This document shows, one piece after another, positions 12,793 through 32,200 of a stretch of DNA of 64,000 nt (position 1 is its first letter; each line of letters begins with the position of its first letter). The position numbers were made by a program, and so were the translations under genes. The stretch is from positions 22,829 to 86,828 of IMG/VR virus record IMGVR_UViG_3300017963_000231, one strand, 5' to 3'. The notes beneath the pieces are model-generated. The model was given only the letters and a program-made list of their open reading frames with translations. It was not told the DNA's origin and did no database searches. This DNA comes from a virus.

Positions 12793-12801
12793 GAAAAATT
12801 C

Positions 12802-12830
12802 TTGACAAACTATTTTATAGGTGCTATACT
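12802..12830 (+). promoter_or_regulatory. Promoter P4
   Basis: TTGACA (12802-12807), 17-nt spacer ending TTTTATAGGTGC and TATACT (12825-12830). It gives the VWA gene its own transcript besides readthrough from P3. The short leader contains a CGTTAAG element found after two related promoters. Confidence 0.82.
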
Positions 12831-12863
12831 AGGTTTTATCGTTAAGTCAAGGAGGGAAACAAA

Positions 12864-15632: not shown

Positions 15633-16697
15633 ATGGCGTTTGAGGTCGCGAGGATCAAAGAGAAGGAACGCTTGAGAATGACCGTCAAGGATCTTGAAGA
15701 TTCGGTACGGTGTCAGGGGTGCAAGATTTATCCAATTTGCGGGGGTTGGGGAGAGTTCGATGATTCGCGGTGGTGTACTCAAGAATGTGAGTGGTGCCGG
15801 GCTATATGTTGTCGATCTCCCAAGGCAAAAGAATCTATAAAGCAATTAAATGGACTCGGGATTCAAAATGTGAAGTGGGTTCCATTTGAGGTTGATCTTC
15901 CTCCTATTATTCCGCAACTTAATGCCCATTCTTTCGGGGTTTACCATCCAGCTTATGGGATATCAGCTAAAAAATTGTTCTATCCAACGACCGGGGGTTG
16001 GTCTAAGGAGAAGAATCTAAGGAAGCGATTTGGTATTCCTTCAGAGAGTAAGATTGTACTCTCGTTTTCCGTTAAAGATGTGATTTTAGATACTTGGGCT
16101 CATTTTCTTGATGAAGCGTGTGAACGTTTAGCTGAGTATGACATTGATTATGTAACGGCAATGAATTTTTCGATATATCGTAATTATCCTCCTCTTGATC
16201 GGCTTGTGAGTTTGAGAAGGAGGTTTTATACGATGGAACGTTTGCAGAATCATGGGATTAAGGTGATTCCAAGTATTGGTTGGGTTAGGGAAATTGATCT
16301 GAAGCGACAGGCTAGGTGGTGCCGTGAGAATAAGCCTTCGATGGTTTCTTATAACATGACCATGATTCGAGCCAGACCGGGAAATTCTGATTGGGAACCG
16401 GAGATGGATCAACTTCGCAAATTTCGCGAGTGGTGTGGGTATCCCGTCAAGTTTTTAATGACCGGAGCAAGCGGACCATCCAGAATTAAGGGACTTGTGA
16501 CTGATTTGGATGGAGTTATATTTTATGATACCAAGACATATCGATTTGCGGAGTTCCATCGTAAGGTATGGGACCTGGATTGGGATAAATCAGTCTCGGT
16601 AAAAGATATGTTTTCTCAGAACTTAGAGTATTCTAGTTGGGTTTATGATTTGACTTTGGAGGATAAAGAAGATCAACGGAGGGAAGCAAATGGGTGA
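15633..16697 (+). CDS. DUF4417-like protein with N-terminal cysteine cluster
   Basis: The 354-residue protein begins with eight cysteines within residues 27-60 (C27, C30, C36, C48, C52, C55, C59, C60), enough for an Fe-S or zinc centre. The body has AMNFSIYRNYP and, further on, HGIKVIPSIGW, which resemble the phage/mobile-element family DUF4417, probably TIM-barrel-like, of unknown activity. The cysteine cluster is the unusual part. It is the first gene after P5 and overlaps the first glycine-leader gene by 8 nt. Confidence 0.65.
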   Translation: MAFEVARIKEKERLRMTVKDLEDSVRCQGCKIYPICGGWGEFDDSRWCTQECEWCRAICCRSPKAKESIKQLNGLGIQNVKWVPFEVDLPPIIPQLNAHSFGVYHPAYGISAKKLFYPTTGGWSKEKNLRKRFGIPSESKIVLSFSVKDVILDTWAHFLDEACERLAEYDIDYVTAMNFSIYRNYPPLDRLVSLRRRFYTMERLQNHGIKVIPSIGWVREIDLKRQARWCRENKPSMVSYNMTMIRARPGNSDWEPEMDQLRKFREWCGYPVKFLMTGASGPSRIKGLVTDLDGVIFYDTKTYRFAEFHRKVWDLDWDKSVSVKDMFSQNLEYSSWVYDLTLEDKEDQRREANG

Positions 16698-17223
16698 TGC
16701 AAGGGCCGGTGGGGGAGGTGGCGGGGCCGGAGTGACTTCCGGACTCGTTATCACAAGTGGGGTTGTGGATGCCAGCATTCGAGACGTGAACAATCGATTT
16801 GGGTTCGAGCAACCGCGAGGAACGCGAGAATCAGATGAAGGTGTTTTAAGTCATGTTGGAGCGACTCAAGGAGCCTCTACTCAGTTCCAGAGGGTAAATC
16901 AGCCTAATGCTAGGGTAACAACTCGTTCGGAGCGAATAACGGCGGCTCAGGCCGAATCCGGGCAATCTTCAACTCGATTGACAACTAGGATCACGGGAAC
17001 ACGGGGGGATTCGGAAGTCACTATCAGGTCAGAGGGTCCACGGGCAGGGCAAGCGAACGGGCCTCGGGTTGATAGCGTGCGTGTTACAGCTCGGGCTCGT
17101 GGCCGAAACATGGATCCAATTACTCGAAGGCCCAATGAATCAGCCAATTCTTTTCGGGGGCGGGTGCGGAATGGCGTGAGCACTTTCTTTGATCGAACGG
17201 CGCTCAAAACCGTGGAGGATTAA
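16690..17223 (+). CDS. Glycine-leader protein 1
   Basis: The 177-residue protein starts MGDARAGGGGGGAG. The rest is Arg/Thr/Ser-rich, low in hydrophobic residues and full of RVTTR- or RLTTRITG-like short strands, suggesting a disordered or repetitive beta protein that could bind nucleic acid. Four other genes in the window (18014, 18370, 23250, 24409) share the MGD plus polyglycine start. AACGGAGGGAAG provides the ribosome binding site. Function unknown. Confidence 0.68.
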   Translation: MGDARAGGGGGGAGVTSGLVITSGVVDASIRDVNNRFGFEQPRGTRESDEGVLSHVGATQGASTQFQRVNQPNARVTTRSERITAAQAESGQSSTRLTTRITGTRGDSEVTIRSEGPRAGQANGPRVDSVRVTARARGRNMDPITRRPNESANSFRGRVRNGVSTFFDRTALKTVED

Positions 17224-17226
17224 ATA

Positions 17227-17739
17227 ATGGGTATGGTCAGGGATAGTTTCAATAATTGGCTCCGGAAAACGAAAGTGATGACTAAAAACCTTTCTAGAGG
17301 AATGGGTTTGGCTTGGCCTTACTATGATCCGGGTGAGATAAAATTTATGCGGGGGATCAGAAAGGTGGAAGAGGAAAAACGAGATGGTCTCTACGGGAGT
17401 TCGGTTCTCAGGTCCAAGGTTATAGCCTTAAATCCCAAGGTTCTCAGGAGAGATGGGCTTATGTGGGCAACGTCGGCTCTGCATGAGGCGGAACACGGGA
17501 TCAATGGGACTGATGAAGGCCCGGCTACTACCAGAGAGTTCAACTTTCTTGGAAAGGTCTATAAGGATTGTATGCGAAGGCGTGATAGGTCAGGGGCAAC
17601 CAAGGCGATGAAGGCCGCGATAATTGCCATGCGGCAACGGAAACGTATGTGCGAGCCTAAAGTGAAGAAGGATGACCACAATCTTTTGACGCGGTATGGG
17701 TTCTCGGATAAGGCCGCTTCGACCATAATGGAGGCGTAA
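17227..17739 (+). CDS. Putative zinc metallopeptidase-like protein
   Basis: The 170-residue protein contains HEAEHG (H86, E87, H90), the HExxH zinc motif, followed by a possible glutamate ligand about 10 residues later. The N-terminal part is basic; the C-terminus is also basic. No family recognised beyond the motif. It lies between two glycine-leader genes, which might be its substrates or partners; this is speculation. Confidence 0.6.
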   Translation: MGMVRDSFNNWLRKTKVMTKNLSRGMGLAWPYYDPGEIKFMRGIRKVEEEKRDGLYGSSVLRSKVIALNPKVLRRDGLMWATSALHEAEHGINGTDEGPATTREFNFLGKVYKDCMRRRDRSGATKAMKAAIIAMRQRKRMCEPKVKKDDHNLLTRYGFSDKAASTIMEA

Positions 17740-17740
17740 A

Positions 17741-17917
17741 ATGAAAGAGCACACTAAAATTTCACCGGAATTGGAGAAGGAAATTGGGGATATTGTGGAT
17801 GAGGACATCCAGAAGGTGATTGAGGAAGAGGGAACTATCGAAAAGGATGTATCTCTTTTTGGGCTCAAGATGAATAATATCTTGGGTCTTAAGTCGCGGA
17901 AAAGGAAACGGTTATGA
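17741..17917 (+). CDS. Small acidic/basic protein
   Basis: A 58-residue protein with an acidic helical N-terminal two thirds (Glu/Asp/Ile) and a C-terminal LKSRKRKRL tail. The start follows GGAGGCG, and the stop overlaps the next start as ATGA (17914-17917). Not recognised. Confidence 0.55.
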   Translation: MKEHTKISPELEKEIGDIVDEDIQKVIEEEGTIEKDVSLFGLKMNNILGLKSRKRKRL

Positions 17918-18012
17918 TCTTGAAACACTGTACCCGTTGCGGGTACGATACTTGGCATTCATTGGAAGGTGAATGTCAGATGTGCGAAAAACGGAAAAAA
18001 AGGAGGAAATAA
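17914..18012 (+). CDS. 32-residue zinc-finger microprotein
   Basis: The product has CTRCG and, 14 residues later, CQMC, a minimal CxxC-CxxC zinc knuckle, then a KRKKRRK tail. It starts in an ATGA overlap, and the AGGAGG of the next gene is in its last codons. The compact zinc knuckle plus basic tail suggests nucleic-acid binding. Confidence 0.5.
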   Translation: MILKHCTRCGYDTWHSLEGECQMCEKRKKRRK

Positions 18013-18013
18013 A

Positions 18014-18367
18014 ATGGGTGATGCAAGAGGAGGAGGCGGTGGAGGAGGCGGCGGTGCCGCTCGTGGCGCTACTTTTGGGGGTTCCGCGCAACTTGGAGCC
18101 GTGGCGGCAGGGCTTAATAGTGAAGTTCGACCGATGACCACTGCGCGAGTAACGAGGGATAATAATGTTCGGGTTGGTAACGGGGAACGGAGTATTCAGC
18201 TTTCCAGGGCCAATGAGGATGAGATGATTCGACGGGTTGGGGGGATGGGTCCGGGTGATACTCTTACCATTGCTAATCCTCAATCTCGGGTCTTTACGAG
18301 CATGAATGTTGGACAAGCTCAACGGGTACGCCGTTCAATTCTTGAGGCTCGGAGACGGCGAGGCTAA
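18014..18367 (+). CDS. Glycine-leader protein 2
   Basis: The 117-residue protein begins MGDARGGGGGGGGGAARG. After the leader come polar strands and an Arg-rich C-terminal helix (RRSILEARRRRG). ATG 18014 is preceded by AGGAGGAAATAAA, so the longer in-frame ORF from 17969 is not used. The leader is nearly identical to that of glycine-leader protein 1 although the bodies differ. Confidence 0.68.
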   Translation: MGDARGGGGGGGGGAARGATFGGSAQLGAVAAGLNSEVRPMTTARVTRDNNVRVGNGERSIQLSRANEDEMIRRVGGMGPGDTLTIANPQSRVFTSMNVGQAQRVRRSILEARRRRG

Positions 18368-18369
18368 TA

Positions 18370-18498
18370 ATGGGCGACGGTATTGGTGGTGGGGCCGGAG
18401 GAGGGGGTGCTCTTGTTGATCAAGGTACTCAAACCATTCCGATCTCGGAACTTTACGATGTGACTGAGAAGATTACGCCGAAAGCTCGCAACTGGTAA
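18370..18498 (+). CDS. Glycine-leader protein 3 (short)
   Basis: The 42-residue frame starts MGDGIGGGAGGGGALV and stops at TAA 18496-18498. The frame one base back continues with hydrophilic protein-like codons to a TAA at 18555-18557 that overlaps the next gene start, so the true product may be longer through a -1 frameshift near CCGAAAG (18478-18484), or the gene may be damaged. Confidence 0.5.
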   Translation: MGDGIGGGAGGGGALVDQGTQTIPISELYDVTEKITPKARNW

Positions 18499-18557
18499 AT
18501 GAACTCTTGGGTCGTCCTTCTCGCAAGGAATCAAGGGAAAAGAAAAGGAAAAAGTAA
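18468..18557 (+). other. Out-of-frame continuation after glycine-leader protein 3
   Basis: This stretch has no obvious start codon of its own but encodes a plausible basic tail (SSQLVNELLGRPSRK, then a lysine-rich end) and ends in TAATG with the FmdB-like gene. It would be reached by a -1 shift from the 18370 frame. Confidence 0.35.
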
Positions 18558-18826
18558 TGTTTGTCAATGATTTTGAATGCTCCAAGTGCGGGGTGATCTC
18601 CGAGATTATGACTAATTCTCGGGTAGATCAAGCGGAGTGTCCAGAGTGTGGCGGTGTAGCCTCTAAGATTTTTACCAAGGCCCCTGATTATCACATGAGT
18701 ATCGATACATTCATGGAGCATCAGAGGGGGCATCTCGGGCCAAAGATTAAGAAGTCGATGGAAAAGGAAGCCAGACTCAAGCAGGAGGTAGAGAGGGCAA
18801 GAAGGACTGTAAGAGGAGGGCAATGA
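18557..18826 (+). CDS. FmdB-type zinc-ribbon protein
   Basis: The 89-residue protein has CSKCG (C8, C11) and CPECG (C28, C31), with a spacing and FxCxxCG style typical of FmdB-family zinc ribbons, then a charged helical tail. Members are often regulatory, but their function is poorly known. It starts in a TAATG overlap with a preceding out-of-frame stop. Confidence 0.72.
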   Translation: MFVNDFECSKCGVISEIMTNSRVDQAECPECGGVASKIFTKAPDYHMSIDTFMEHQRGHLGPKIKKSMEKEARLKQEVERARRTVRGGQ

Positions 18827-18827
18827 C

Positions 18828-19442
18828 ATGAGTGCATTGGTCGATAGTGTTTTGAGTTTTATCGATAGTGTGGCATTGCCAAATGAGGATTGGCGTATCG
18901 ATGTTGAGCATGACAAGGCGGAAGGTTTCGTTGTACTCATGGCGGTAAGTGAGTTCGGGAAGGGGCAGTGCCTAACGTTTGCTTGCATGGAAGAGATAGT
19001 ATATTCGTACCCCGGTAAGGAAGCGGATTTCTGGAGTTATGCTTTAGAGAAGCTATACGATAACATCAGGGATGATAATTTGAATAGATTGCGGGAAAAG
19101 TACGATATTTTTATTGGACCGGAGATTGCTCGGGAGCTTCATGCTATGAGGAGTACGGCTCGGTATCAGGAATTGTTAACTCCTCTTGATGGGGTTGAAC
19201 CCATTTTGGCATTCGGGGATGGTGTTGGGGATCAGGAAATGATGGAGGCTTACAATTTTAATCTTGCTAATGGCGGTAGCCTTGCTGATTTTATTTGGAT
19301 TGTAGATAAAGGTAAGCAATTGACAATTTCTTTGGTTTATAAGCCATTTGAGTTGATTGTTCTTCATCTGGATGATGTGGTTGATAAGAGATCATGGGAG
19401 GTGCTTGAGCCTGAGTACACTTCCCTGAAAGTACACTATTAG
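18828..19442 (+). CDS. Unknown protein
   Basis: The 204-residue acidic mixed alpha/beta protein shows no motif I recognise. GAGGAGGGC precedes it inside the FmdB-like gene end, with 1 nt between stop and start. Codon use resembles neighbours. Confidence 0.68.
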   Translation: MSALVDSVLSFIDSVALPNEDWRIDVEHDKAEGFVVLMAVSEFGKGQCLTFACMEEIVYSYPGKEADFWSYALEKLYDNIRDDNLNRLREKYDIFIGPEIARELHAMRSTARYQELLTPLDGVEPILAFGDGVGDQEMMEAYNFNLANGGSLADFIWIVDKGKQLTISLVYKPFELIVLHLDDVVDKRSWEVLEPEYTSLKVHY

Positions 19443-19455
19443 CAAGAGGAAGTGG

Positions 19456-19605
19456 ATGAAATTAGATAAATCAGAGGCCAAGGTTGTAGCGGAACTTCTT
19501 GACGCATGCCGAGCCTCAGGGGCCTGTAACTCTTGCGTTAATCGCAAGGAATGCAACTCGATCAAAAAGAAGTTGATCGAGGGTGAGACTCAAACGGGGG
19601 AATGA
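19456..19605 (+). CDS. Small cysteine-motif protein
   Basis: A 49-residue protein with four cysteines (ACRASGACNSCVNRKEC arrangement), able to bind one metal. AAGAGGAAGTGG serves as ribosome binding site, and the stop is 3 nt before the next start. Not recognised. Confidence 0.55.
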   Translation: MKLDKSEAKVVAELLDACRASGACNSCVNRKECNSIKKKLIEGETQTGE

Positions 19606-19608
19606 GTT

Positions 19609-20325
19609 ATGGAGTATAAGAAATTTTTAATTCCGGTGAGCATAGAGGCCGATTTTTTGGATGAGGCGTGGTTTTTGGCTCTTCAATCCATGTTTATAGA
19701 TGGTCGGGTGTATCAGATAGATCAAGGGTCATTTGAGGGCCATCGGCGGTTGGAACTTGATTTTGTGACGATCAATATCAAGCATCCTGGGGAAGGCAAT
19801 CTTATTCCGGTGATTCCGGAGGGCATGGCTAGGGTGACGGCTCCCGCTTCTCCGGAGCATGTCAATTCTTACTATTCTTACCTAATGTCAGCCGATAAAG
19901 CTGAGTATGAGCAATATACTTACGGTGAGCGGATTGTAGGCGGGGTGAATCAGGTAGAAAAGATAATTGAGCGGTTCCGTAAGTACGGAGAGGGGACCAA
20001 TCAGTGTTGCATGGCAGTAGCGAGGCCGGAAGATATTGAATTGACAGACCCGCCTTGCCTTCGGATGATCGATTGCCGAATGATGTATGGCCAACTCCAT
20101 TTCATCGTTTATTTCCGCTCTTGGGATTTATGGGGAGGTCTCCCGTCGAATTTGGCGGGTATCCAGACCCTCAAGGCCATTATGGCAGACTCAATTGGAT
20201 GTGGGGACGGGGAGATCATCGCTTGCTCGAAAGGGCTCCATCTCTATGACATGGCTTGGGAGCAAGCCGCGATTCGGACCTATAAGATCGAGCAATACAA
20301 CCATTTGATGAAGTTTTTGGGGTAA
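19609..20325 (+). CDS. Thymidylate synthase-like pyrimidine C5 methyl/hydroxymethyl transferase
   Basis: The C-terminal half of this 238-residue protein follows the thymidylate synthase pattern. It has the catalytic cysteine in DPPC (C150), phosphate-binding FRSWD (R170, S171, D173), GLPSN with the asparagine (N181) that selects a uracil base, and the HLY turn (H211-Y213). Enzymes of this fold add a methyl or hydroxymethyl group to dUMP or dCMP; Asn at 181 favours dUMP. It is short and lacks the classical N-terminal arginine loop, like archaeal-type TS. It sits 2 nt before a DNA methyltransferase. Activity (dTMP or hmdUMP) is undecided. Confidence 0.78.
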   Translation: MEYKKFLIPVSIEADFLDEAWFLALQSMFIDGRVYQIDQGSFEGHRRLELDFVTINIKHPGEGNLIPVIPEGMARVTAPASPEHVNSYYSYLMSADKAEYEQYTYGERIVGGVNQVEKIIERFRKYGEGTNQCCMAVARPEDIELTDPPCLRMIDCRMMYGQLHFIVYFRSWDLWGGLPSNLAGIQTLKAIMADSIGCGDGEIIACSKGLHLYDMAWEQAAIRTYKIEQYNHLMKFLG

Positions 20326-20327
20326 TC

Positions 20328-21122
20328 ATGATTCATTTTGGTAGTTATAAGGACGTGATTTCGGAGTTAGATGACTCCAGCGTGGATTTGATTCTTACTG
20401 ATCCACCTTATGGGACTACTGATTTAAGTTTTGATGACGGGACAACGGAGGGATGGTTCCTTGATTGTGAACGGGTGCTCAAAGATACTGGGTATCTAAT
20501 CAGTTTCGGGCCGGAAGATCTTTTAATGGAGATCGGAATTCATTTTCAGAGCCGGTTCCGCGTATCTTGGGTGAAAAGCCTTCCTTTTATGCAACTGAAG
20601 GGGGCGAAAAAACCTAGTTCTCATCACGAATTGATAGGTGTTTTTTGTAAAAAAGAGGCAAAAGTAAAGGATTTGCCGTGGAATGTAGTGAAACGTAAAG
20701 GTGATCCTTACCTAAAGAAGCAGAATAGCCGTAAGTCCAAAAGGGAGGGAAAGGATCAAATTGATCGGAGAGGGTTTAACACTGCTAATTTTATATCTGA
20801 AAACGCCGGGTATCGCCTTCAGACGGATGTAATTAAGGCTCCGAATAAGCCAACCATGAAGCATGTTGAGCGAACTCCCCATCCGACTCAGAAGCCCTTG
20901 ACGCTACTGATACCATTGATTGCTTGGGTGACCAATCCGGGTGACGTGGTACTCGATCCATTTTGCGGATCGGGTGGAACGGGAATAGCATCGAAACTGT
21001 TATCTAGGGAGTTCATTGGAATTGAACTCGATCCATTTTATGTCGGGCTGGCCGAAGCTAGAATAAAAGACTATGAAAGATTCAGTTACGCACTGGAGGA
21101 TTACATATTAGATGAAAGCTAA
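20328..21122 (+). CDS. DNA methyltransferase (beta-group, N6-A/N4-C)
   Basis: The complete 264-residue enzyme has the catalytic DPPY (25-28) near the N-terminus and the SAM-binding DPFCGSGGTG (210-219) near the C-terminus, the beta-group order. HPTQKP (185-190) is the usual motif before it. DPPY suggests adenine-N6 more than cytosine-N4. Between the motifs is a Lys/Arg-rich target-recognition stretch around 110-150. It is a second, different methyltransferase from the one at the left edge. No restriction enzyme is adjacent, so it is probably a solitary phage enzyme protecting or marking its DNA. Confidence 0.9.
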   Translation: MIHFGSYKDVISELDDSSVDLILTDPPYGTTDLSFDDGTTEGWFLDCERVLKDTGYLISFGPEDLLMEIGIHFQSRFRVSWVKSLPFMQLKGAKKPSSHHELIGVFCKKEAKVKDLPWNVVKRKGDPYLKKQNSRKSKREGKDQIDRRGFNTANFISENAGYRLQTDVIKAPNKPTMKHVERTPHPTQKPLTLLIPLIAWVTNPGDVVLDPFCGSGGTGIASKLLSREFIGIELDPFYVGLAEARIKDYERFSYALEDYILDES

Positions 21123-21408
21123 GAGAGTTACGCTGGATATTTGGATACCATTCATCCCAATTCCGGGGAGATGGGATGATCGAATGGTGAACTATGTTTG
21201 TTACGGGTCGTTTGATGGGTTCCGACGGTGGTTTCCTACGGTGTTCCAGTATCTTTACATCAGGTCTAAGTGGTTTCGTGATCAGATAGCCAGGGGGATG
21301 GATACTCGGGCTTCTATCGCGGAAATCAGGGGGAATGAGAATAAGGCCATTCCGGCGTTGGATGAATTTTGGGGGAAGTCATGCGAAGAGGACTCAGATT
21401 TAAATTAA
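21112..21408 (+). CDS. Unknown protein
   Basis: The 98-residue aromatic-rich protein (several Trp, Phe and Tyr) overlaps the methyltransferase by 11 nt and the esterase by 28 nt. No family recognised. Confidence 0.62.
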   Translation: MKAKRVTLDIWIPFIPIPGRWDDRMVNYVCYGSFDGFRRWFPTVFQYLYIRSKWFRDQIARGMDTRASIAEIRGNENKAIPALDEFWGKSCEEDSDLN

Positions 21409-21989
21409 TGAGGGTAGCAGTTTTGGGGTATGCAGTATTGCAGGGGGCGTGTGCTCCATCGGAAAGTGCGAATGATGAGTATATTCCCGGTATCTATCAA
21501 GTGTCTGTTCCTGGGGATGAGCCTGGAGTTCTTCTCATAGGGCAGTCCAATTGTGTTGGGTTTGATTTGGCATGGGATGGGCCAGAGCGGTTTGATATTT
21601 TTGCATTGCCGGGGTCTAAGATCGAGAAATGGGATCCGCCGGATACGGCTTTGTTTCGGGAAGTCGATCATCTTCTTGCGGAGAGGCCCTACAAGGCCGT
21701 GATTTGGTTCCAGGGCGAGAGTGATGGGGTAGATATCCAATCGGCTCGGCTTTACCATGATCGGCTTGAGGAGCTACTCTCGCATATCTTGATCCATAGT
21801 CCGGTGATCCTCGTGACAACTCACGGGACACCATATTCGGATATGGTTAACGGGGCGAAGGGTGAACTTAGTAAGGAGTATGAAGGGGTTTACATGGTGG
21901 ATTCATCGGATTTGCCTCGAAGGGATAGTATGCATCTGACGATTGATGGAAAACTTGAACTGGTAGATAGGTTTAGGTTATACTATTAA
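21381..21989 (+). CDS. SGNH-type esterase lipoprotein
   Basis: The 202-residue protein has a signal peptide with a lipobox LQGAC (C24), so it should be exported and lipidated. The mature part has GQSN (54-57, nucleophile S56), WFQGESDG (109-116) and D182-x-x-H185, matching SGNH/sialate-O-acetylesterase (DUF303-like) enzymes that remove acetyl groups from sugars. ATG 21381 follows GGGGGAAG; ATG 21408 also keeps the lipobox. A surface-anchored acetylesterase made by a phage may alter host polysaccharide receptors or be a lysogenic-conversion trait. It is not in the tail gene block, so it is probably not a virion part. Confidence 0.75.
   Translation: MRRGLRFKLMRVAVLGYAVLQGACAPSESANDEYIPGIYQVSVPGDEPGVLLIGQSNCVGFDLAWDGPERFDIFALPGSKIEKWDPPDTALFREVDHLLAERPYKAVIWFQGESDGVDIQSARLYHDRLEELLSHILIHSPVILVTTHGTPYSDMVNGAKGELSKEYEGVYMVDSSDLPRRDSMHLTIDGKLELVDRFRLYY
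21955..21984 (+). promoter_or_regulatory. Possible promoter within end of esterase gene
   Basis: TTGAAC (21955-21960), 18-nt spacer and TATACT (21979-21984) lie in the last codons of the esterase gene, about 100 nt before the next gene. It is weaker than the main family and lacks its TTTTATAGGTG core. Confidence 0.35.
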
Positions 21990-22085
21990 AGTAGGTCGTG
22001 AGGTTTAAGATGCATAATTATGCGTGTAGTTGTCGGATAATAGAATATTAGGGGGCGAATTTGTCTTACCTAGAGGGGGTAGGTT

Positions 22086-22949
22086 GTGAGTGGTCGGATA
22101 CGATTAACGGAAGGTTTTCGGAGGTTGCGGCGGTCAAGGAGATTCCATGATATCCATGCTCTTATAGTGGCCGGGGTAGCATGTAATGAAATCGCGAGGA
22201 AGATTCAGATGGAGTGGCGGGAGATGAACACGGTATCCCAAGCAACGTTGGCAAAGCAACTGGAGAGGTATCGTAAGTCCCTGGAGGTAGGGGGGTTGGC
22301 TCCCCATGAGATTCCGGAAGAGGCCCGAAAGGCCAGGGGGGGTATCCTGGGTTCGGCGCTGGAAAAAGGGGGGTGGGCAGTATATGATGCGGAAACGTCC
22401 TCATCTAAGGTGGATGAAGATCCGTACAAAGGTCGGACTAAGGCAGAGATCGAGCAAGCATCTTCAGGTGATTTGGCGAGGATGGTTGAAAAAGAGAAGG
22501 CAATCCCTACTGACGGGGCGGTAGATGTAAAGGAGGGGCTATCCAAGCTACTCGATATTCAGATGGCTCGAATCGCGATGGAGGTAAAGAATGAAGAGAG
22601 TATAGGGAAGCTCATGCCGGGGACGGGGTTAGAAATCAACGTAGCCAAGGATATACTCAAGTCTCTCCATGTGGTGCAGGGGGATCTAGGGTTGACTCAC
22701 AAGGAACCTGATCAGCTATCAGTAGGTATAGGGATCGGTCCTTCCAAGGATTTGACGGAAGCATTGTCTAAGTCTGGATTATTAAAGACTATTTCTGACA
22801 AAAACTCCCGAAAACGTATTTTAAAAGCGCTTCAGGGGGAGACCCCTCTAGGGGGGCAGACATTTTTGCCTGAAATGTCGGAAAATGCGGAAAATGAGGA
22901 TGATGTGGTCCAAGTAGTTGAAAATAAAGGAGGAAATGGGGATGGATAA
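22086..22949 (+). CDS. HTH protein, possible small terminase subunit
   Basis: The 287-residue protein has a basic N-terminus and a helix-turn-helix-like segment (LIVAGVACNEIARKIQ, about residues 26-41), helical middle parts and an acidic C-terminus. HTH plus oligomerisation region and location upstream of the large terminase fit a small terminase, but several genes intervene and no clear family signature is present. GTG 22086 follows GAGGGGGTAGG. Alternative: a transcription regulator. Confidence 0.5.
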   Translation: MSGRIRLTEGFRRLRRSRRFHDIHALIVAGVACNEIARKIQMEWREMNTVSQATLAKQLERYRKSLEVGGLAPHEIPEEARKARGGILGSALEKGGWAVYDAETSSSKVDEDPYKGRTKAEIEQASSGDLARMVEKEKAIPTDGAVDVKEGLSKLLDIQMARIAMEVKNEESIGKLMPGTGLEINVAKDILKSLHVVQGDLGLTHKEPDQLSVGIGIGPSKDLTEALSKSGLLKTISDKNSRKRILKALQGETPLGGQTFLPEMSENAENEDDVVQVVENKGGNGDG

Positions 22950-23169
22950 GAGTTGCATAAACTGCGATTTTAATTATAGTTGTGATGCTAGGTTAAAAGG
23001 GAAGTTTGAGCCTTCCTTTTGCCAGGAGTTCTCTATCAATATCGATCAGGATGATGAAAAAGGGAATCGGGAGCGGGCAGAGCAATGCAAGTTCTTTGTC
23101 CCAAGGGGAGGGGACCGGAGTAAGGTGCCGGATCGGGAGCGGTGGTATGAGAAAGATAGTATCGCATAA
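22942..23169 (+). CDS. Cysteine-containing small protein
   Basis: A 75-residue product with CINCDFNYSC at the start and two further cysteines (C27, C49), likely a metal site. ATG 22942 is chosen at proper spacing from AAAGGAGG (22926-22933); ATG 22936 is too close. It overlaps the preceding gene by 8 nt. Unknown function. Confidence 0.6.
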   Translation: MDKSCINCDFNYSCDARLKGKFEPSFCQEFSINIDQDDEKGNRERAEQCKFFVPRGGDRSKVPDRERWYEKDSIA

Positions 23170-23248
23170 ATGTGCGAAGCTCTTGAGTAAGGATATGGAG
23201 CGGTGCATTGCTGAAAAGGTCGGGGATGAGAGTAAGGGAGAAAAGTAA
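23147..23248 (+). CDS. 33-residue peptide with paired cysteines
   Basis: A short frame, start 23147 after GGGAGCGG, stop 23248, directly before glycine-leader protein 4. It has two cysteines (HKC and ERC) in a lysine-rich helix. It overlaps the previous gene by 23 nt. Weak evidence beyond position. Confidence 0.4.
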   Translation: MRKIVSHKCAKLLSKDMERCIAEKVGDESKGEK

Positions 23249-23249
23249 A

Positions 23250-23729
23250 ATGGGAGATGGGAAAGGCGCAGGTGGTGGTGGAGGTCAAATAATGAATGTT
23301 ACCGGTAAATCCGGGGATGTTGTTAGAGAGGAGGTATCACAATTTATACGTCGCAATACCGAAATAGATAATCCATACATGACAACGCAAGGACTTGGGA
23401 CTGGCGTTAATTCTGGGTTGACGGCGGATTTTTTGCAAAGTCAACTTGATCCTGGGGCTAAGGTGACAGTCACTACTCGCAGTGTGGATTCGGCTATCGG
23501 TAAGAATGGAAAGTTATCTGGTCCTGGAAAGTCTTTTGTGACTACTATCAGTGGGGGCGGGGTAGATGTCAGTGTGATAACATCTCAAGCCGGGCAAATT
23601 CGATCTAGTCGGATTAAACGAGTTCCTCGTTTGTATACAAGAGTCGAAGGAGGGGAGGGCGGAGGAAAATCTTTTCTCGGGTTCCCTGCCACGAGTATTT
23701 TTCAGACGGTTACTGGTAAACTCAACTAG
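23250..23729 (+). CDS. Glycine-leader protein 4
   Basis: The 159-residue protein begins MGDGKGAGGGGGQ. The body has valine- and threonine-rich strands (TVTTRS, SFVTTISGGG, VSVITS) and an SRIKRVPRLY basic patch. A second polyglycine tract (EGGEGGGK) lies about 20 residues before the end. GGGAG at 5-6 nt further upstream serves as ribosome binding site. Same family of leaders as the genes at 16690, 18014, 18370 and 24409. Confidence 0.68.
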   Translation: MGDGKGAGGGGGQIMNVTGKSGDVVREEVSQFIRRNTEIDNPYMTTQGLGTGVNSGLTADFLQSQLDPGAKVTVTTRSVDSAIGKNGKLSGPGKSFVTTISGGGVDVSVITSQAGQIRSSRIKRVPRLYTRVEGGEGGGKSFLGFPATSIFQTVTGKLN

Positions 23730-23762
23730 AGGGAATAATGAACACCAAAAATAAAAAGGGGA

Positions 23763-24020
23763 ATGATGGTGAAACTTCAGAGTAAGGACAGGGAACGCCA
23801 TGCCGAAACAATCATGACGGTAGAGAAAAGGGCGGTTGCTTGCTATGATTGTGTGAAACTCACTTTGCTGAAAGACCTATGCTCACCGGCGGGTAGTCTG
23901 GATTTGACCTGCCCGGATTGCACGAAAAAGCGAGAGGCCGGGAAGATTGTCCTTTTTCTTATTTCGATGCTTGGGATCATGAGAATTGTACGCAAGGATG
24001 GGCGGTGCAAGATGATATGA
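23763..24020 (+). CDS. Zinc-ribbon protein, zero-frame reading of a likely frameshifted gene
   Basis: The first 56 residues hold CYDC and CPDC, a zinc-ribbon layout. After AAAAAG at 23925-23930 the zero frame turns into a hydrophobic stretch that looks like a shadow, whereas the -1 frame stays Cys-rich and protein-like to a stop placed just before the next gene. Either AAAAAG is a programmed -1 slip site or a frameshift mutation is present. ATG 23763 and 23766 are both possible starts after AAGGGGA. Confidence 0.5.
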   Translation: MMVKLQSKDRERHAETIMTVEKRAVACYDCVKLTLLKDLCSPAGSLDLTCPDCTKKREAGKIVLFLISMLGIMRIVRKDGRCKMI

Positions 24021-24109
24021 TGTGGTGTTATCCGGGTAGTTCGGCATGTCCACGGTTCGATGAGGGGGCTTTATCTGGCGGGATTCGTGATCTTCTAGGT
24101 AGGGAGTAG
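23918..24109 (+). CDS. Cysteine-rich continuation in the -1 frame
   Basis: This frame encodes REDCPFSYFDAWDHENC, then a second pair of cysteines (WCYPGSSAC) and an LLGRE end, with protein-like composition. Its only start would be TTG 23918 with a poor site, so it is probably translated as the C-terminal part of the 23763 gene by a -1 shift. The stop is 4 nt before the next ATG. Confidence 0.5.
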   Translation: MHEKARGREDCPFSYFDAWDHENCTQGWAVQDDMMWCYPGSSACPRFDEGALSGGIRDLLGRE

Positions 24110-24113
24110 GGCG

Positions 24114-24308
24114 ATGATAGCTGATGTGATATGCGAGAATGATCTTTGTTTACATAACAATGGTCATGGTGGATGCCGGGCATTGGGGATCAAGTTGGAA
24201 GTGAAAATGGTGGGGAAAAATAATTGTGTTTTGGCGTGTTCTAAGTACAAACTTGACCCACGGGATGAAGGTAAATTGAGTGATGGGAAAGATGATGAAA
24301 AACAATAA
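24114..24308 (+). CDS. Cysteine-rich small protein
   Basis: A 64-residue protein with CENDLC, a GGC and CVLAC, five cysteines and two histidines suggesting one metal site, and a charged C-terminal tail. GGGAGTAGGGCG lies before the ATG. From memory small phage proteins with CENxxCxH patterns are common, without known role. Confidence 0.6.
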   Translation: MIADVICENDLCLHNNGHGGCRALGIKLEVKMVGKNNCVLACSKYKLDPRDEGKLSDGKDDEKQ

Positions 24309-24359
24309 GTTATATACCGCATATATAGTGAAAATTAATGTGTAATGCATATCTATGCA

Positions 24360-24394
24360 GGGAAAATTACCGCATTGTGTGCGTAATTTTTCCC
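24360..24394 (+). promoter_or_regulatory. Hairpin just upstream of a ribosome binding site
   Basis: Left arm GGGAAAATTA plus CGCA pairs with TGCG plus TAATTTTTCCC around a 5-nt loop, about 14 bp with one or two bulges. The GAGGAGGG site of glycine-leader protein 5 starts 1 nt later. There is no T run after it, so it is not an obvious terminator. It may expose the ribosome binding site or protect the mRNA 5' end after processing. Confidence 0.5.
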
Positions 24395-24408
24395 GAGGAG
24401 GGTTGAAA

Positions 24409-24957
24409 ATGGGTGACGGGAAGGGAGGCGGCGCTGGCGGTGGAGGTACTGCGGCGGCAGTTGGCGGGAAAGAGGGACTCCGGGAACTGGATCAGGTTCT
24501 TCGAGGGGCGGAATCTTATTCAGGGACGATCTTGGCCGAGCAGGAAAGTCAGTATTTAGGTGGTTTCGGTCCGGTCCGGCGGTCAGGTCCGGCTCCTTGG
24601 GATCGGTTTAATTTCAGGTCTCAACCGAACGGCAATTTGGGCGGGATCCGGAGAAATGACCGGATTGTGATCACGGGCCAGGGTTTCGGCAGTAGGAGGG
24701 ATCCGCCAAGTCGATGGGTAACCGGTCCGGCTCGTGTCACTTCGGTTCGAGGGCGTGGGGATGGTCGAACGGTGACGGTTTCACCTATCGGGAATTGGTC
24801 TCGCCATCGGTCGATTACCCTGAATACGGCTCCTGCCAGGGCTCCGGGGCAGAGATTTACCACTTCTCCCCAATCGAGTGAGGTCAGGACTAGTCCAAAT
24901 ACTCCGGCTCGAAGGAGAGGGGTGACGGTGATGACGGTAACGGGGAGGGCTGAGTGA
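24409..24957 (+). CDS. Glycine-leader protein 5
   Basis: The 182-residue protein begins MGDGKGGGAGGGGTAAA, then an acidic helical part and a long Arg/Pro/Ser/Thr-rich disordered C-terminal half with many RVT or VTV strands. Net charge of the body is strongly positive. It directly precedes the large terminase and overlaps it by 4 nt (GTGA), so it may be a DNA-associated packaging or internal head protein; this is inference from position and composition. Confidence 0.68.
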   Translation: MGDGKGGGAGGGGTAAAVGGKEGLRELDQVLRGAESYSGTILAEQESQYLGGFGPVRRSGPAPWDRFNFRSQPNGNLGGIRRNDRIVITGQGFGSRRDPPSRWVTGPARVTSVRGRGDGRTVTVSPIGNWSRHRSITLNTAPARAPGQRFTTSPQSSEVRTSPNTPARRRGVTVMTVTGRAE

Positions 24958-26744
24958 GTTTATCCAGTGAGGAGCAAGAACTTTTACGCCAGATTGTGGA
25001 GGAGTTCGACGATCACGGTGAGAGTTCTACGCTCGAACTCCTGCTTGGGATGGATTTTGATTACATCCTTCCCGATATGGAGACGTTCCTTCTTGACCCT
25101 TATTACATGGGACAGACCGGAAAATCCATATACCCAAAGCTCCTGGATGATTTAATTGAAATCTTTGAGGACGGCCCATTCATTGAGATCCATCTGACTG
25201 GAGGCATTGGATGGGGAAAGAGCACGATTGCTGAATTTATCATGGCTCGGATGATTGCGGAGTGCTGGGTTTATAAAGATCCGGCTACTGCATTCGGGCT
25301 CATGCCAGGGTCTACGATCTCATTTATGAATATTTCCGTGAGTGAGGGCCAAGCCCGGAGGGTCATTTTCAAGGGGTTATACCAAAAACTTACCAGATCT
25401 CCCTTTTTTCAGGAGTGTTGTCGTCCGGATCCGAAAGTTGTGACGGAACTTCGGTTCCCCAAGAATCTTTGGATGGCTCCTTTGGCTTCGACGGATAATT
25501 CTGCTTTAGGACTCGATATTTGGGGCGGGATCATGGATGAGGCCAATTTTATGGCCGTGGTGGAGAAATCCAAAGCCGCCGGACGGGGGAATAAGCGGTT
25601 TGATCTTGCGGAGAACATCTATTATACCATCCAGCGACGGATGAAGTCTCGATTTATGGAGGCTGGCACTATTCCAGGGAAGCTCGTGATTGTTTCATCC
25701 AAGAATTATCCCAATACTTTCATGGAAAGGCGGATGAAGGAGGTAAGGGATATGGAGGAACAGGGGGTTTTTATACGTGATTATGCCACTTGGGAGCCCA
25801 AACCTTCGAGAATTTATTGTGGGGATACTTTCCCAGTGGAAGTTGGAGATGTGGCCAATGTTTCTCGTATTTTGACCCTGGAGCAAGCGGAAAAGGCCCA
25901 TGGAAAGGTTATTGATGTACCAGTGGAGTTCCGGAAAGACTTCGAGAAGGATATCGATCAGGCTATTCGGGATTTGGCTGGGGTTGCGACGGCTACAATT
26001 AACCCATATTTCAAGGATTTTCGGAAGATTACTACTGCGATTGACTCTCGGAGACATCCATTTACGGCTGAAAGCACTAATTTGCAGGATGGGGCGGGGT
26101 TTATTCAAGATTCGCTTGTGGAAATGGACCCAAGAACCAAGAAAACTATCCCTCGAATATCCCCGACTGAGCCCCGATGGGTGCATGTGGACCCGTCTTT
26201 GTCAGGGGATGCTACGGGAATTGCGATGGGGCATGTGGCCGGTCTTGTGGAGATCGAGAGGAAAGATGACGATACGGAGCGGTGGACTATTGAAGAGGCT
26301 CCGTTGATTTGCATTGATTTTATGCTCCGGGTTGTCCCACCGGTTGGCGGTGAGATTCAGTTTCGGAATGTGAGGCAGTTGGTTTATTCTCTTACTGAGA
26401 TGGGTTTTTTGATCAAGGGGGTATCGGCTGATAGTTATCAATCAGCGGAATCAATGCAACATTACCAGTATCGAGGATATCAGACGGCTCGATTTAGCGT
26501 AGAGCGTGAGGATGCCTATAAATTGCTCAAGGATGCGTTTTACGAAGGTCGGGTGAAGATGTATGAATATCCACCGGTGATCGGTGAATTAAGGCAGTTG
26601 GAGTTTGATAAATCTTCGGGTAAAATTGATCACCCGGCTGGCGGGACAAAGGATGTTTCTGATGCCGTTTGCGGTGTGGTGGTGGGATTGATGAGGTATA
26701 TGGTCGTGAAAAGTAAAACTAACTTTGGGGTACAGGTGTTTTGA
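24954..26744 (+). CDS. Terminase large subunit
   Basis: The 596-residue protein has a packaging-ATPase Walker A GGIGWGKST (83-91) and Walker B with catalytic acid GGIMDEAN (191-198). A C-terminal RNase H-like nuclease domain starts at HVDPSLSGDATG (D413) and ends with a KDVSDA motif near residue 575. It translocates DNA into proheads and cuts concatemers. GTG 24954 overlaps the stop of glycine-leader protein 5. The portal gene follows after one small zinc protein, the usual order. Confidence 0.94.
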   Translation: MSLSSEEQELLRQIVEEFDDHGESSTLELLLGMDFDYILPDMETFLLDPYYMGQTGKSIYPKLLDDLIEIFEDGPFIEIHLTGGIGWGKSTIAEFIMARMIAECWVYKDPATAFGLMPGSTISFMNISVSEGQARRVIFKGLYQKLTRSPFFQECCRPDPKVVTELRFPKNLWMAPLASTDNSALGLDIWGGIMDEANFMAVVEKSKAAGRGNKRFDLAENIYYTIQRRMKSRFMEAGTIPGKLVIVSSKNYPNTFMERRMKEVRDMEEQGVFIRDYATWEPKPSRIYCGDTFPVEVGDVANVSRILTLEQAEKAHGKVIDVPVEFRKDFEKDIDQAIRDLAGVATATINPYFKDFRKITTAIDSRRHPFTAESTNLQDGAGFIQDSLVEMDPRTKKTIPRISPTEPRWVHVDPSLSGDATGIAMGHVAGLVEIERKDDDTERWTIEEAPLICIDFMLRVVPPVGGEIQFRNVRQLVYSLTEMGFLIKGVSADSYQSAESMQHYQYRGYQTARFSVEREDAYKLLKDAFYEGRVKMYEYPPVIGELRQLEFDKSSGKIDHPAGGTKDVSDAVCGVVVGLMRYMVVKSKTNFGVQVF

Positions 26745-27046
26745 TGCCTACTTGGGAAGATGAAATAAAGTCTAGAAATCTGGCCCGGAAACTTCGGGAG
26801 CAAGAGGAGGCTCGAAAAGAGGCTCTTGAGGAGACCCGGAAATGCGGCAATTGTGGGGCAGACGTTAAAATGGGGGATAATTTTTGCTGGAAATGTGGCA
26901 ATTCCCTTGAAGGATCCTGGATTAAGGAATGTAAGGGTTGCCATCGGCTTTTCAAAACTATCCGGCCCAAGGATCGGGAGTATTGTAATCGATGTGAAGG
27001 GGAAGCTCGGAAGAAGGCTAATTCAGGTGGGCTTATTCGGTATTAG
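26744..27046 (+). CDS. Double zinc-ribbon protein
   Basis: The 100-residue protein has a charged coiled N-terminus, then CGNCG...CWKCG and CKGC...CNRC, two complete zinc ribbons. The start shares its first base with the terminase stop. Between terminase and portal genes, it may assist packaging, but no role is known. Confidence 0.7.
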   Translation: MPTWEDEIKSRNLARKLREQEEARKEALEETRKCGNCGADVKMGDNFCWKCGNSLEGSWIKECKGCHRLFKTIRPKDREYCNRCEGEARKKANSGGLIRY

Positions 27047-27055: not shown

Positions 27056-28726
27056 ATGGCTGATAAAAAAACAAGACGTGGTTCGAGGGGCGGAAAAAAG
27101 ATCAAAGAGCAGCGGGTTGTGAATCAAGAAGAGGGCGTGGTGGTAAAAGTCCTTGAGTTCGGGGGTGATGACGCTTTGCCGGATCGTGGGGAATCAAAGC
27201 AGTTAACTCCTGATGTGTTCGAGGTAGTCATAAAAGATGGTCAGGCTATTCGACCACTTTATGATCCCCTTCTTTGGGCGACGCTTCTGGAGCAGGATGT
27301 TCGCCTTTTCCGGTGCGTGACGGCCATGGCATTGAATACTGTGGGGTCCGGATGGGAGCTTTCGGCTCGATATGATTCAAAGGAATTTGTGGAGGAGAAC
27401 AAGGAAAACATCAAAAAAGAGCGGGCGGAAATCATGCCTTTGTTCAAGTATCCGAATTCAGAGTATTCCTTTGAGGAAATGATGCAGATGATCAAGACTG
27501 ATGAGGAGGCCGAAGGTCAAGGTTACATGGAGGTGTCTCGGGACAATAAAGGTCAGATCGATGGTCTTTATCATGCTCCCGGTCACACAATCAGGGTTTT
27601 GGCCGAGAAAAAGGGATTTTTGCAGATGAGGACCAATCTCGGGTCGGATTCCTATGTTTTTTCTCCGGGGAAAACGGCTGAGGATAGTATTCAAAAGGTG
27701 TATTTTAAGAATTTCGGGGATAAACGAGCGATTGATAATCGCACGGGGGGTGAAGCTAAGGGCGCTCTTGCTCCGGAATTTCGGGCAAATGAACTCATTC
27801 AGTTCAAAATTTATACTCCTCGGAGCTCATTTTATGGGATTCCGAGAGTAGTAGCGGCGGCTCCTGCCATATCCGGTAATCGACTGGCTCAGTTGCGGAA
27901 TGTTTCGTTCTTTGAGAATGATGCTACTCCCCGGTTGGCAGTTATTGTAGAAGGTGGAAATTTGGATACATCTTCCGTCAAGATGATAGAGAACTTTATT
28001 GAAGCTCGTGGGAAAGGCCCAATGAATTTTGGCAGAGTAATGGTCCTTCAACCGCAATCACAAGAGGCCGTTCCTGGGGCTGAGAGTAAGGCTAAAATCA
28101 CACTGATGCCGCTAACTGTGGGTGTAACGGAGGATGCGAGTTTTACCCGATATCTAGTTTTGAATTCGGAGATGGTTCGTGAGGCATTTGGGATTGGCAA
28201 GATTTTCTTGGGGACGGCTGATGATGTGAATCGAGCTACTGCTTTGACGATGAAGCAAGTGACCATGGAGCAAGTATTTGAGCCTGAAATCAAGAGGTAC
28301 GAGCATAGATTGGATATTACCGTTATGCGTGATCTTGGAGCGAAGTACACGCAACTCAGATTTACCCGGCCCAAGATGACGGACCTTTCTTCGGATGCTC
28401 AGGCTTACGGGGTTCTTGCGGCGGCTGGGGGAATTACGCCTAATGACATCAAGGAACTTCTTGGCCAGGATCCATTTGCGGCAGAGTGGGGTAATACTCC
28501 AATTCCTCTTATTAAGATGGGTCTTTTGGAAGGCCGCGAAGTTCCGGCTGATTTCGCGGATGGTCCTGATAGTGGTGGGGAGGGTAATGCCTCAATCGAG
28601 CAAGAAATTGCACGAGCTACCAAGTTGTTTGGGGAAGCTACGGGGTTTTCCGGAACTTTGGATCTAATAGCTAATGGTGATCCTCAAGAAGTGGTGCATA
28701 AGTTACGGGCATTAGTGGAAAAGTAG
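27056..28726 (+). CDS. Portal protein
   Basis: The 556-residue protein has the order and features of HK97/PBSX-type portals: a disordered basic N-terminus, a wing with RLFRCVTAMA, the clip/stem region with FKIYTPRSSFYGIPR (about 245-259) and a C-terminal crown segment with TPNDIKELLG. Location after the terminase and before the protease and capsid genes agrees. It forms the dodecameric DNA gate in the head vertex. AGGAGGC precedes the ATG. Confidence 0.85.
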   Translation: MADKKTRRGSRGGKKIKEQRVVNQEEGVVVKVLEFGGDDALPDRGESKQLTPDVFEVVIKDGQAIRPLYDPLLWATLLEQDVRLFRCVTAMALNTVGSGWELSARYDSKEFVEENKENIKKERAEIMPLFKYPNSEYSFEEMMQMIKTDEEAEGQGYMEVSRDNKGQIDGLYHAPGHTIRVLAEKKGFLQMRTNLGSDSYVFSPGKTAEDSIQKVYFKNFGDKRAIDNRTGGEAKGALAPEFRANELIQFKIYTPRSSFYGIPRVVAAAPAISGNRLAQLRNVSFFENDATPRLAVIVEGGNLDTSSVKMIENFIEARGKGPMNFGRVMVLQPQSQEAVPGAESKAKITLMPLTVGVTEDASFTRYLVLNSEMVREAFGIGKIFLGTADDVNRATALTMKQVTMEQVFEPEIKRYEHRLDITVMRDLGAKYTQLRFTRPKMTDLSSDAQAYGVLAAAGGITPNDIKELLGQDPFAAEWGNTPIPLIKMGLLEGREVPADFADGPDSGGEGNASIEQEIARATKLFGEATGFSGTLDLIANGDPQEVVHKLRALVEK

Positions 28727-29281: not shown

Positions 29282-32200
29282 ATGGAGCTTGATAAATCCT
29301 TTGAATTCGGGTTAACGGTTTGTAAGGCCCGGAGGGATGAAGAGGGCCGGATGATTGTTACGGGTTATGGTTCTGATACCATGACTGATGGGCATAAAGA
29401 GAAGTTTGATACTCACGCCATTAAGGGAATGCTGGATGCAGTTCGGAACGGCGTTCCTCTCATGACTTCACACAAGGATTCGTTTGGGTTTGGAGAATCG
29501 TTCGATGGTCGGATTGTTCCCCTGGATAGCGGGGAGGTCGGGCTTGAGGTTGATTTTCTTTTGAAAGAGAAGTACCCGCAAGCGACGGATCTTTTTGAGG
29601 CTATTCAAAGCGGAAAGTGTGATCAGCAACTTTCCGTTGGCGGGAAATTGAATATGTCCAATCCTCGGGCCGCTTACCTTCTTAGGGACGGTACTAAGGT
29701 ACTTCATGATTTTGATTTGGATCATTTTTGCACGACTCGGCCTAAAAAGGCGGCGAATCCTCGAACTCATTTTAAGGCCGCAATGTTTGAATCCCTGGAA
29801 AAGGATGGGATGACCGATGAGGTCTGGAAAACATTGGAGGTAGATGATTCTGAGGCTGAAAGGCTGGCTCAGGTGGGGGGAAGCATCGAGAAATTTCTGA
29901 TGCTCAGTCCTTCCATGGATTCGCCTATGACGGGGAGTGTTAATCGGGAAGATGATCCGCTTGGCGGTAATGACAGGTCTTTTGAGGATTTGCCGTCGTT
30001 TAAGCAAATGCGTGATGCTGGGTACAATGCTTACCACGTTCCGCTTTATTGGGAGGGTCATCCCGTTCAACTGGCGATGCGTGATGTTCGGATGGATCGG
30101 AAAAAGTGCTTGGAGAATGTCGGGCGGTATAAATTCGATGAGATTGAACCGATGGTACGAGCCAGTGGGGTAAAAAACCCGGTGGTAGATAGTAAAGGGA
30201 TGATTTCTCTTTACGGCGATTATAGTAATGTCGGGAATATGGATGATCGACCGGTCGGTAAAGATCCTACGGGAAAACGGGCCGTTCGGTATTATCGAAT
30301 GTTCCCGTCGGCAATAAACAATGACGGTGAACTGGAATATGATGATCTTGGGCGACTGAAAGGTGGCGGATTCTTGTTCATGAAGGATGGGCGAAAAGTC
30401 CCCGGTGAGGATGATTACTCCCCCTTCTGGAGAGTTCCTTCCATGACGGAAGCACAAGTCTTGATCCCGGATGCCGTGGCCAAATTGGCGGAAACCACTG
30501 AAAAGTCTGATCTTGAGGATACGGTGGAGAAGAGCATTAATCTTACCCGAACTTTGCTTATGCCCTTGTCCCTGCGGAAAATCAAGCTCAGGACTAAACC
30601 CACGGATGACCATTCTCATGAGTTGAGGCTTTTCCTTGATTCCTCTGGCAAGGTAGTTGACGGATATACCTTTGACGGCGGATCATCCTTTGCTCATGGC
30701 CGGAGGGCTCAGGCTACTCAGGATATGAATGACCGTGAATCGTTCCGGCTTCGCCATGACCACGTTCATATCGTAGTGTTTACGGGAGGCAAGGCCGTTC
30801 TTGCCGAAGCCTTGGGGCATACTCATGAGTACGAGTTGCCTGAAATGGAAAAGGAGACAAGCGAAATGGAGTTTCACAAAGAGAAGGTACGGCATAGGAC
30901 CGTGAATAGCGGCGGCTACTTTGCCGTGGGCGAGAAGGGCATTGGAGCGGAGGTCTATGAGGAAGCTCCTAAATCCGCTGATCTTACTCAGACGGGTCAA
31001 AGTTCCTATGCACTTCTCTTGGAGAGTGAACACGGACAGCACATTCGCCAGCTTGGGAAGATTTCCAGGGCAGAGGCTCAGAAGATGGCTCTTGGGGCCG
31101 TCAAGCCTGAAGGTGGGAAAGTGGTAGTTGGTCGGTCGATTGGCCGTCTCAATAATCGCAATCTCTACCGGATGCTTTCAGAGTTCTCTCCGGCGGACGG
31201 GAAAGAGGAGGCTGAAAAGGCGGTGCCTTTCCGGTCTTACCCACTTTCGGGTAACCGGCGGTGGTCTTTTACGGCGAATGAAGGGAATGCGATTCTCAAT
31301 CAGTTCGGCGGTGAGGATTCAGAAAGAGCGTGGAAGGCTTACGAGAATGCTCATGCGTGGTACAACTCGGATGCTGGTAATGGTACTCCTCGAACTAAGG
31401 GAGCCTATGCTTTGCCTCATCACAAGCTGGAAGATGGTTCTATGCGAACCTTCCCCGGCGGTGTGATTGCGGCTATGGCGGCTTTGAATGGTGCGAGAGG
31501 CGGTGTTACTCGCATTCCGGCGAATGAGAGGCAAGGGGTTTATAACCATCTTTCTCAGCACTATCGTCAAATGGATATGACTCCCCCGGATTTGCGGGGA
31601 GCCAAGGAAGGTTATAAGGAAGATATCGGGGTTGGCGAGACTGACTCTGAGTATCTGGATCAATTCATCAATTTCCATAAGGAGCAAGGAGTAGATCTTG
31701 ATTGGCTTCCTGCTTTTATGGATGAGTTTTCAAAAAGTGAAGAGGAGGTAGACAAGATGGGCGGTGAGGAAAAGAAAAAGGATGAGACCACTGCTCCTCC
31801 CGTAGAGGAGACTGCGGTGGACGAAACTACGGATGATAAGGAAACTGAGGCTCCGAAAGAGGAAGCCAAGCAAGAGGAAACCGTGGAAACCAAGACTGAT
31901 ACCGGACTTCTGGAGAAGTTTATGGTGGGTCTTGGGCTGAAAAAGGCTCCCAATCCGAAGGTTGAGCGCACACTGACTCTGATGGAATCGGCTCAAGATG
32001 CTCTTGAGGGCGTGGAAATCGGGGAAGATGATGCCGCTCCCTTGATCGGACAAATGGCCAAGCTCGTTTCCATGGTCAAGGCCGGGGTAGAGGCGGGAAA
32101 GATCGACCTGGATGATCTTCCTGCTCGCGATGCTCGGTTGCTCAAGGCGTTCCTGGATGGGAATCCGGTGGAGGCTCCGAAAGAGGCTCCGAAACCTACT

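Follow-up and report, generated by a model that had tools for sequence, protein, structure and literature searches.

Why should five small genes of one phage, with bodies that are for the most part dissimilar, begin with the same short glycine-rich peptide? This question is raised by IMG/VR virus record IMGVR_UViG_3300017963_000231, of which bases 22829-86828 (of 86,828) were analyzed; this whole stretch of 64,000 nucleotides is called the window, and positions are counted from its first letter. Five open reading frames (ORFs) on its + strand, starting at 16690, 18014, 18370, 23250 and 24409 and named here by these starts or as MGD-polyGly genes 1-5, all encode the leader MGD[A/G][R/K/I] followed by a Gly/Ala run (Table 1). 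Our analysis suggests, as a tentative reading built largely on analogy, that the five genes form one set of small accessory proteins, virion-associated or internal, in which the leader would be an assembly or sorting tag and the bodies would be exchangeable.

All five are real coding genes. Upstream of each start lies a purine-rich ribosome-binding region, the weakest being that of 18370. Synonymous codon usage is like that of the window's known genes in the annotated frame only, the other five frames giving mostly negative scores; the first-pass annotation, which had placed five genes with a common MGD-Gly leader at these starts, is confirmed in this respect. The automatic gene caller found three of the five, and the remaining two were placed by hand. 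The five stand among about 117 called genes on their own contig, and a search of the remaining 22.8 kb of that contig gave no further leader copy.

The leader boundaries were set by direct reading of the sequence, and the N-terminal starts at 23250 and 24409 were read as MGDGKGAGGGGGQI and MGDGKGGGAGGGGT. M-G-D is common to all five leaders, and R or K occupies residue 5 in four of them; the glycine run described earlier is shared, but it is broken by Ala in several copies. Where leaders carry the same residue, the codons are identical in 21 of 84 comparisons (0.25), against 0.28 expected from a random draw of the leaders' Gly codons. Over their first 13 residues, the leaders of 18370 and 24409 show a single difference, yet only 2 of the 11 compared codons are identical. 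Since the peptide was kept while its synonymous sites became saturated, these data indicate purifying selection on the protein, by which the leader is maintained. The randomized synonymous codons also argue against any recent DNA-level copying, and recent spread of the leader by recombination, which the first-pass annotation had proposed to check from the third codon positions, is thereby ruled out.

The same codons bear on a nucleic-acid reading, in which the leader would matter as DNA or RNA (for example, as a shared translational operator or a G-rich tract where translation begins) and its peptide would be a by-product. Each copy does lie exactly at a start codon, and genes 1 and 2 share ATGGGTGATGCAAG. 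However, the freely varying third codon positions largely refute this reading, the sequences upstream of the five start codons are not conserved, and only 6 of the 44 Gly codons in the leaders are GGG, below that codon's usage of 0.35. The codon variation and the avoidance of GGG therefore point to selection on the peptide rather than on a DNA repeat or G-tract; both a G-quadruplex and a translational operator at the start were ruled out on these grounds, and we consider an element of this kind very improbable.

Behind the leader, the bodies could not be aligned with each other, except that of 16690 with that of 23250, which gave a collinear alignment over most of the length (local z 2.4-3.6, p 0.002-0.023, according to the matrix and the shuffling used). 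As ten to fifteen pairs were tested, this similarity is marginal; the two proteins may be distant paralogues, and the earlier description of the bodies as unrelated, although right for most of them, is slightly too strong. The composition that had been called alike is shared by four of the five proteins, with isoelectric points (pI) of 9.9-11.9, whereas the 42-residue product of 18370 is acidic (pI 4.4). Arg almost excludes Lys in three proteins (R/K 25/1, 18/0 and 25/2), Cys is absent from all five, and there is little hydrophobic core. Pfam and PHROG profile searches of the five bodies gave no significant match (best E 0.043, below the curated cut-off), and when 16690 and 24409 were compared by tblastn with 50,697 phage records, nothing beyond chance matches came back. 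The strand pattern of 23250 and 24409 raised the suspicion of a small beta-barrel body, which was not established.

Relatives of the phage were sampled via the terminase large subunit (TerL), which yielded 79 loci with 1285 called genes bearing a ribosome-binding site; these relatives are few, the closest are fragments, and most others are either too divergent or carry too little sequence before TerL. Three loci (L002, L006 and L110) belong to the same virus (99.97% identical over 17.9 kb), and a portal-based search returned only this virus and its nearest relative, L010, which shares 72% identity in TerL, 68% in the portal, 63% in the protease/scaffold protein, 55% in a zinc-ribbon protein and 40% in the terminase small subunit (TerS). 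A loose Gly-start filter retained 4 of the 1285 genes, of which only that at L010 3741 was clearly leader-like, and a relaxed leader pattern gave no match in 30 related whole records. Given this rarity in relatives and the lack of other copies in the phage's own contig, the clustering of five is not due to chance. In L010, the gene directly before TerL starts with a Gly leader (MAKVRGGAGGGG; also read as MAKVRGGAGGGGAVAGGAG) followed by a basic body, which showed no similarity to that of 24409, and no gene matched between the TerS-TerL intervals of the window and L010; in a further relative, L011, the slot before TerL holds a different, leaderless protein. L010 is one case of a leader kept while the body changed, and L011 one absence, which is suggestive but not proof.

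Leader patterns of the MGD type were also scanned in IMG/VR and 84,980 genomes, and those of a broader M[GA]xxx-polyGly type in IMG/VR. Outside the same virus, MGD-type starts resembling real genes were found only in podophages (L089 and L093/L101), where small MGD-Gly genes lie between TerL and the portal; the remaining matches were internal Gly-rich stretches or out of frame. The small proteins of L089 and L101 are like those of the window in their true or likely MGDG-polyGly start, their basic C-terminal region and their place beside TerL and portal, and unlike them in occurring once per contig, in a C-terminal motif (RGRSKGTILTS...KTLLG) absent from the window's proteins and in bodies without detectable homology. 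The L101 protein matches phrog_831 at 3e-7 via its C-terminus, whereas the five MGD proteins gave no match to that family; tblastn of the L101 C-terminal peptide against phage records found nothing, and a likeness of the window C-termini to the podophage RGRxSTILTG motif, seen by eye only and without statistical support, was dropped. The podophage gene (L093:2069 / L101:209) lies between a short ORF and the head-tail connector, and its product has a MGDGGGGGGGGGG start, acidic Gly/Asp repeats and the phrog_831 C-terminus.

The broader pattern was found on unrelated phage genes, the real-looking cases being podophage virion-region genes (L113, L117), a transglycosylase-like protein (L115) and a long tape-measure-like protein (L140); L113, L117 and L140 were identified by neighborhood and appearance, their proteins having no PHROG match. 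Such starts are what would be expected if Gly-rich N-termini arose frequently in phages and the five leaders were convergent low-complexity sequences that need neither a single origin nor a specific function beyond flexibility. Against this stand the M-G-D of all five copies with R/K at residue 5 in four, the near-identity of two leaders despite 9 of 11 differing codons, and the rarity of these starts among the relatives. Convergence is thus partly refuted, and we regard it as quite improbable.

Concerning the genomic setting, the genes for a tail sheath, a tail tube, a tape measure and a baseplate mark the phage, by their sequences, as contractile-tailed. Its TerL is about 35% identical to those of cultured Vibrio and Rhizobium phages, and the group is diverse in IMG/VR. 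Downstream of the portal lies a gene for a likely head-maturation protease, for which the L011 homologue matched phrog_80 (head maturation protease) at E=7.7e-4 and the window copy more weakly (0.044), and the scaffold-like C-terminal region fused to it has 298 amino acids, a pI of 4.5 and a net charge of -34. Two of the five MGD genes (23250 and 24409) sit between TerS and TerL, and genes 1-3 lie 6-8 kb away from TerL amid non-structural genes. The earlier placement of the genes among Cys-rich microproteins, with the last one before the terminase, was borne out: small Cys-rich proteins are interspersed at 17914-18012, 18557-18826, 23763-24020, 24114-24308 and 26741-27046, and the products of 18557 and 26741 resemble zinc ribbons.

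Table 1. Features of the window, with positions, strand and the grounds for each assignment.
Feature	Position	Strand	Grounds and remarks
MGD-polyGly gene 1	16690..17223	+	177 amino acids, pI 11.5, Arg-rich (25 R, 1 K), no Cys; ORF with ribosome-binding site, coding codon usage
Leader of gene 1, MGDARAGGGGGGAG	16690..16731	+	Direct reading; synonymous codons randomized
MGD-polyGly gene 2	18014..18367	+	117 amino acids, pI 11.9 (18 R, 0 K); ORF, composition, codon usage
Leader of gene 2, MGDARGGGGGGGGG	18014..18055	+	Direct reading
MGD-polyGly gene 3	18370..18498	+	42 amino acids, pI 4.4; start 3 nucleotides past the gene 2 stop
Leader of gene 3, MGDGIGGGAGGGGA	18370..18411	+	Direct reading; codon comparison
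Probable TerS	22086..22949	+	Position and 40% identity to the L010 counterpart; sole phrog match of unknown function
MGD-polyGly gene 4	23250..23729	+	159 amino acids, pI 9.9; predicted helix and four strands (low confidence)
Leader of gene 4, MGDGKGAGGGGG	23250..23285	+	Direct reading
MGD-polyGly gene 5	24409..24957	+	182 amino acids, pI 11.8; 4-nucleotide overlap with TerL start; predicted helix then strands (low confidence)
Leader of gene 5, MGDGKGGGAGGGG	24409..24447	+	Direct reading
TerL	24954..26744	+	phrog_2; about 35% identity to phage TerL matches
Portal protein	27056..28726	+	phrog_12, E=2e-43
Likely head-maturation protease fused to acidic scaffold-like C-terminal region	29285..32653	+	phrog_80, weak match; charge
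Tail sheath	41933..43897	+	phrog_23, E=1e-48; marks contractile tail

Other neighbors of the MGD genes include a DNA methyltransferase, a thymidylate synthase-like protein and a SASA esterase. The thymidylate synthase-like protein (Pfam 3e-11) is followed by an N6/N4 DNA methyltransferase (2e-32) at 19609-21122, possibly as DNA-modification genes, and between the methyltransferase and TerS, at 21384-21989, lies the SASA-type carbohydrate esterase (1e-14), whose sequence, by reading, includes a lipoprotein-like signal. Directly 3' of the first MGD gene, the product of 17227-17739 carries, by direct reading, an HEAEH motif reminiscent of the active site of zinc metalloproteases, with no Pfam match, and at 11437-14786 an AAA ATPase followed by a VWA-domain protein is a candidate MoxR/CobT-like arrangement by reading alone. 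In L011, both TerL and the portal (1284-4226 and 4538-7312) contain intein-like inserts, with matches to Pfam Hint (5e-4, TerL) and Intein_splicing (4e-4, portal) that are all below the Pfam cut-offs; the TerL insert holds a 272-residue ORF (2194-3012), whose frame is not that of the continuous TerL ORF, with matches to NUMOD3 (1e-13) and a TnsA-like endonuclease domain (1.5e-7), which is possibly an out-of-frame homing endonuclease nested in an intein.

The reading of the leader as a tag draws on the shared leader and its protein-level selection, the coding status of the genes, the basic bodies, the location near packaging genes, the body turnover in the L010 slot, the podophage genes with such starts between TerL and portal (L089, L101) or in virion regions (L113, L117), and the likely prohead protease with its acidic scaffold-like region. 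The suggestion of the first-pass annotation that the leader could be a targeting, self-assembly or processing tag is partly supported by these data. The leader would be the constrained functional part, with diverged or exchangeable bodies behind it, four of the five strongly basic. It could form a flexible N-terminal arm recognized by some component of head assembly, such as the acidic scaffold, the portal or the prohead. In this way, various small proteins would enter the particle and might be delivered along with the DNA; for the basic proteins, the acidic scaffold-like region would be a candidate partner. Binding to the scaffold or prohead, packaging and delivery are steps that we infer. 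A more specific version, which we hold with still more reserve, is that the short MGD[AG][RK]-poly(Gly/Ala) leader may be an undescribed sorting tag, unrelated to that of T4. With it, a phage lineage would co-package small basic proteins that can replace one another, or dock them on a single partner, and relatives would swap the bodies but keep the tag.

Several phage systems offer a comparison. The internal proteins of T4 are basic and poorly conserved, with N-terminal targeting propeptides of 10-19 residues that bind the core (PMC9026906), and the present leader would act like their capsid-targeting leader. As with T4 IPI, IPII and IPIII, several small proteins with dissimilar bodies carry one short N-terminal leader, and the bodies are poorly conserved between related phages (changed in L010, leaderless in L011) (PMC9026906). 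The present phage also has a contractile tail; four of its five proteins are basic, and it encodes a likely head protease and an acidic region that is scaffold-like. Unlike in T4, the leader is Gly/Ala-rich, MGD[AG][RK], without the [IL]xE motif, and one member is acidic and only 42 residues long. Because the leader lacks the T4 cleavage motif, the likeness is one of analogy and not of membership. The first-pass annotation had named no described family of this type; the T4 proteins do share the design (PMC9026906), although the leader sequence is unlike theirs. In P1, the first 30 residues of DarB direct a reporter into the head (PMC9024508); in that phage, too, an N-terminal stretch, of up to 30 residues, sends an accessory protein into a contractile phage head, but the P1 Dar proteins have no common N-terminal consensus, and DarB is a protein of 250 kDa (PMC9024508).

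Two further readings give the proteins other roles. They might be minor structural virion proteins, that is, disordered basic connectors between portal, core and DNA, whose Gly leader is a flexible arm and whose bodies diverge fast since only charge and flexibility matter. The precedent is T7 gp6.7 and gp7.3, small proteins at the portal/core and tail channel, of which gp6.7 was seen mostly as loops (PMC11784390). Such connectors would agree with the small size, basic charge and scant hydrophobic core of the proteins, with their largely disordered low-confidence models, with the location beside TerL and portal, and with the podophage MGD-Gly genes between TerL and portal, one of which has a phrog_831-type basic tail. 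T7, however, is a podophage whose proteins are not known to share a Gly leader; five copies of one leader in a contractile-tailed phage is unusual, and genes 1-3 lie far from TerL among non-structural genes. We judge connectors to be rather unlikely, though a serious rival. The proteins might instead remain unpackaged in the cell as host-takeover or anti-defense proteins, with a leader that serves for docking on one shared partner or for stability and with bodies that are variable effectors. The patchy, fast-changing character of these accessory genes, with nothing conserved between TerS and TerL in L010, fits this reading, as do the methyltransferase, thymidylate synthase-like, esterase and zinc-ribbon neighbors, whereas two of the five genes lie between TerS and TerL, the bodies match nothing in Pfam or PHROG (a search that left out the defense library PADLOC), and no effector family that begins with a leader of this kind is known to us. 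Unpackaged effectors are an unlikely explanation, but they, too, are a serious rival.

Several observations weigh against the sorting-tag reading itself. No second genome with several leader genes was found among the few, mostly fragmentary relatives, which partly realizes the circumstance named by the first-pass annotation as counting against such a family. The acidic, tiny product of 18370 does not fit a set of basic proteins, and the five leaders, by direct reading, have no T4-type [IL]xE cleavage motif and no other definable shared site. AlphaFold models of 23250 and 24409, made with no alignment, were largely disordered (mean predicted local distance difference test, pLDDT, 38-39), and Foldseek with these models found nothing significant and identified no fold. 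Gly-rich starts also occur on larger phage proteins, including the window's own tape measure protein, which begins MAFGGGGMAGS, and could simply be flexible linkers. Further, a virion location of the five proteins is at present suggested by their genes only.

Should the leader prove to serve packaging or docking, a compact signal by which phage heads are loaded with diverse proteins would be known beyond T4 and P1. Its sequence could then be used to spot rapidly changing cargo or effector genes of uncultivated phages that otherwise escape notice. The data also illustrate how selection can preserve a tag well beyond the divergence of the bodies attached to it.

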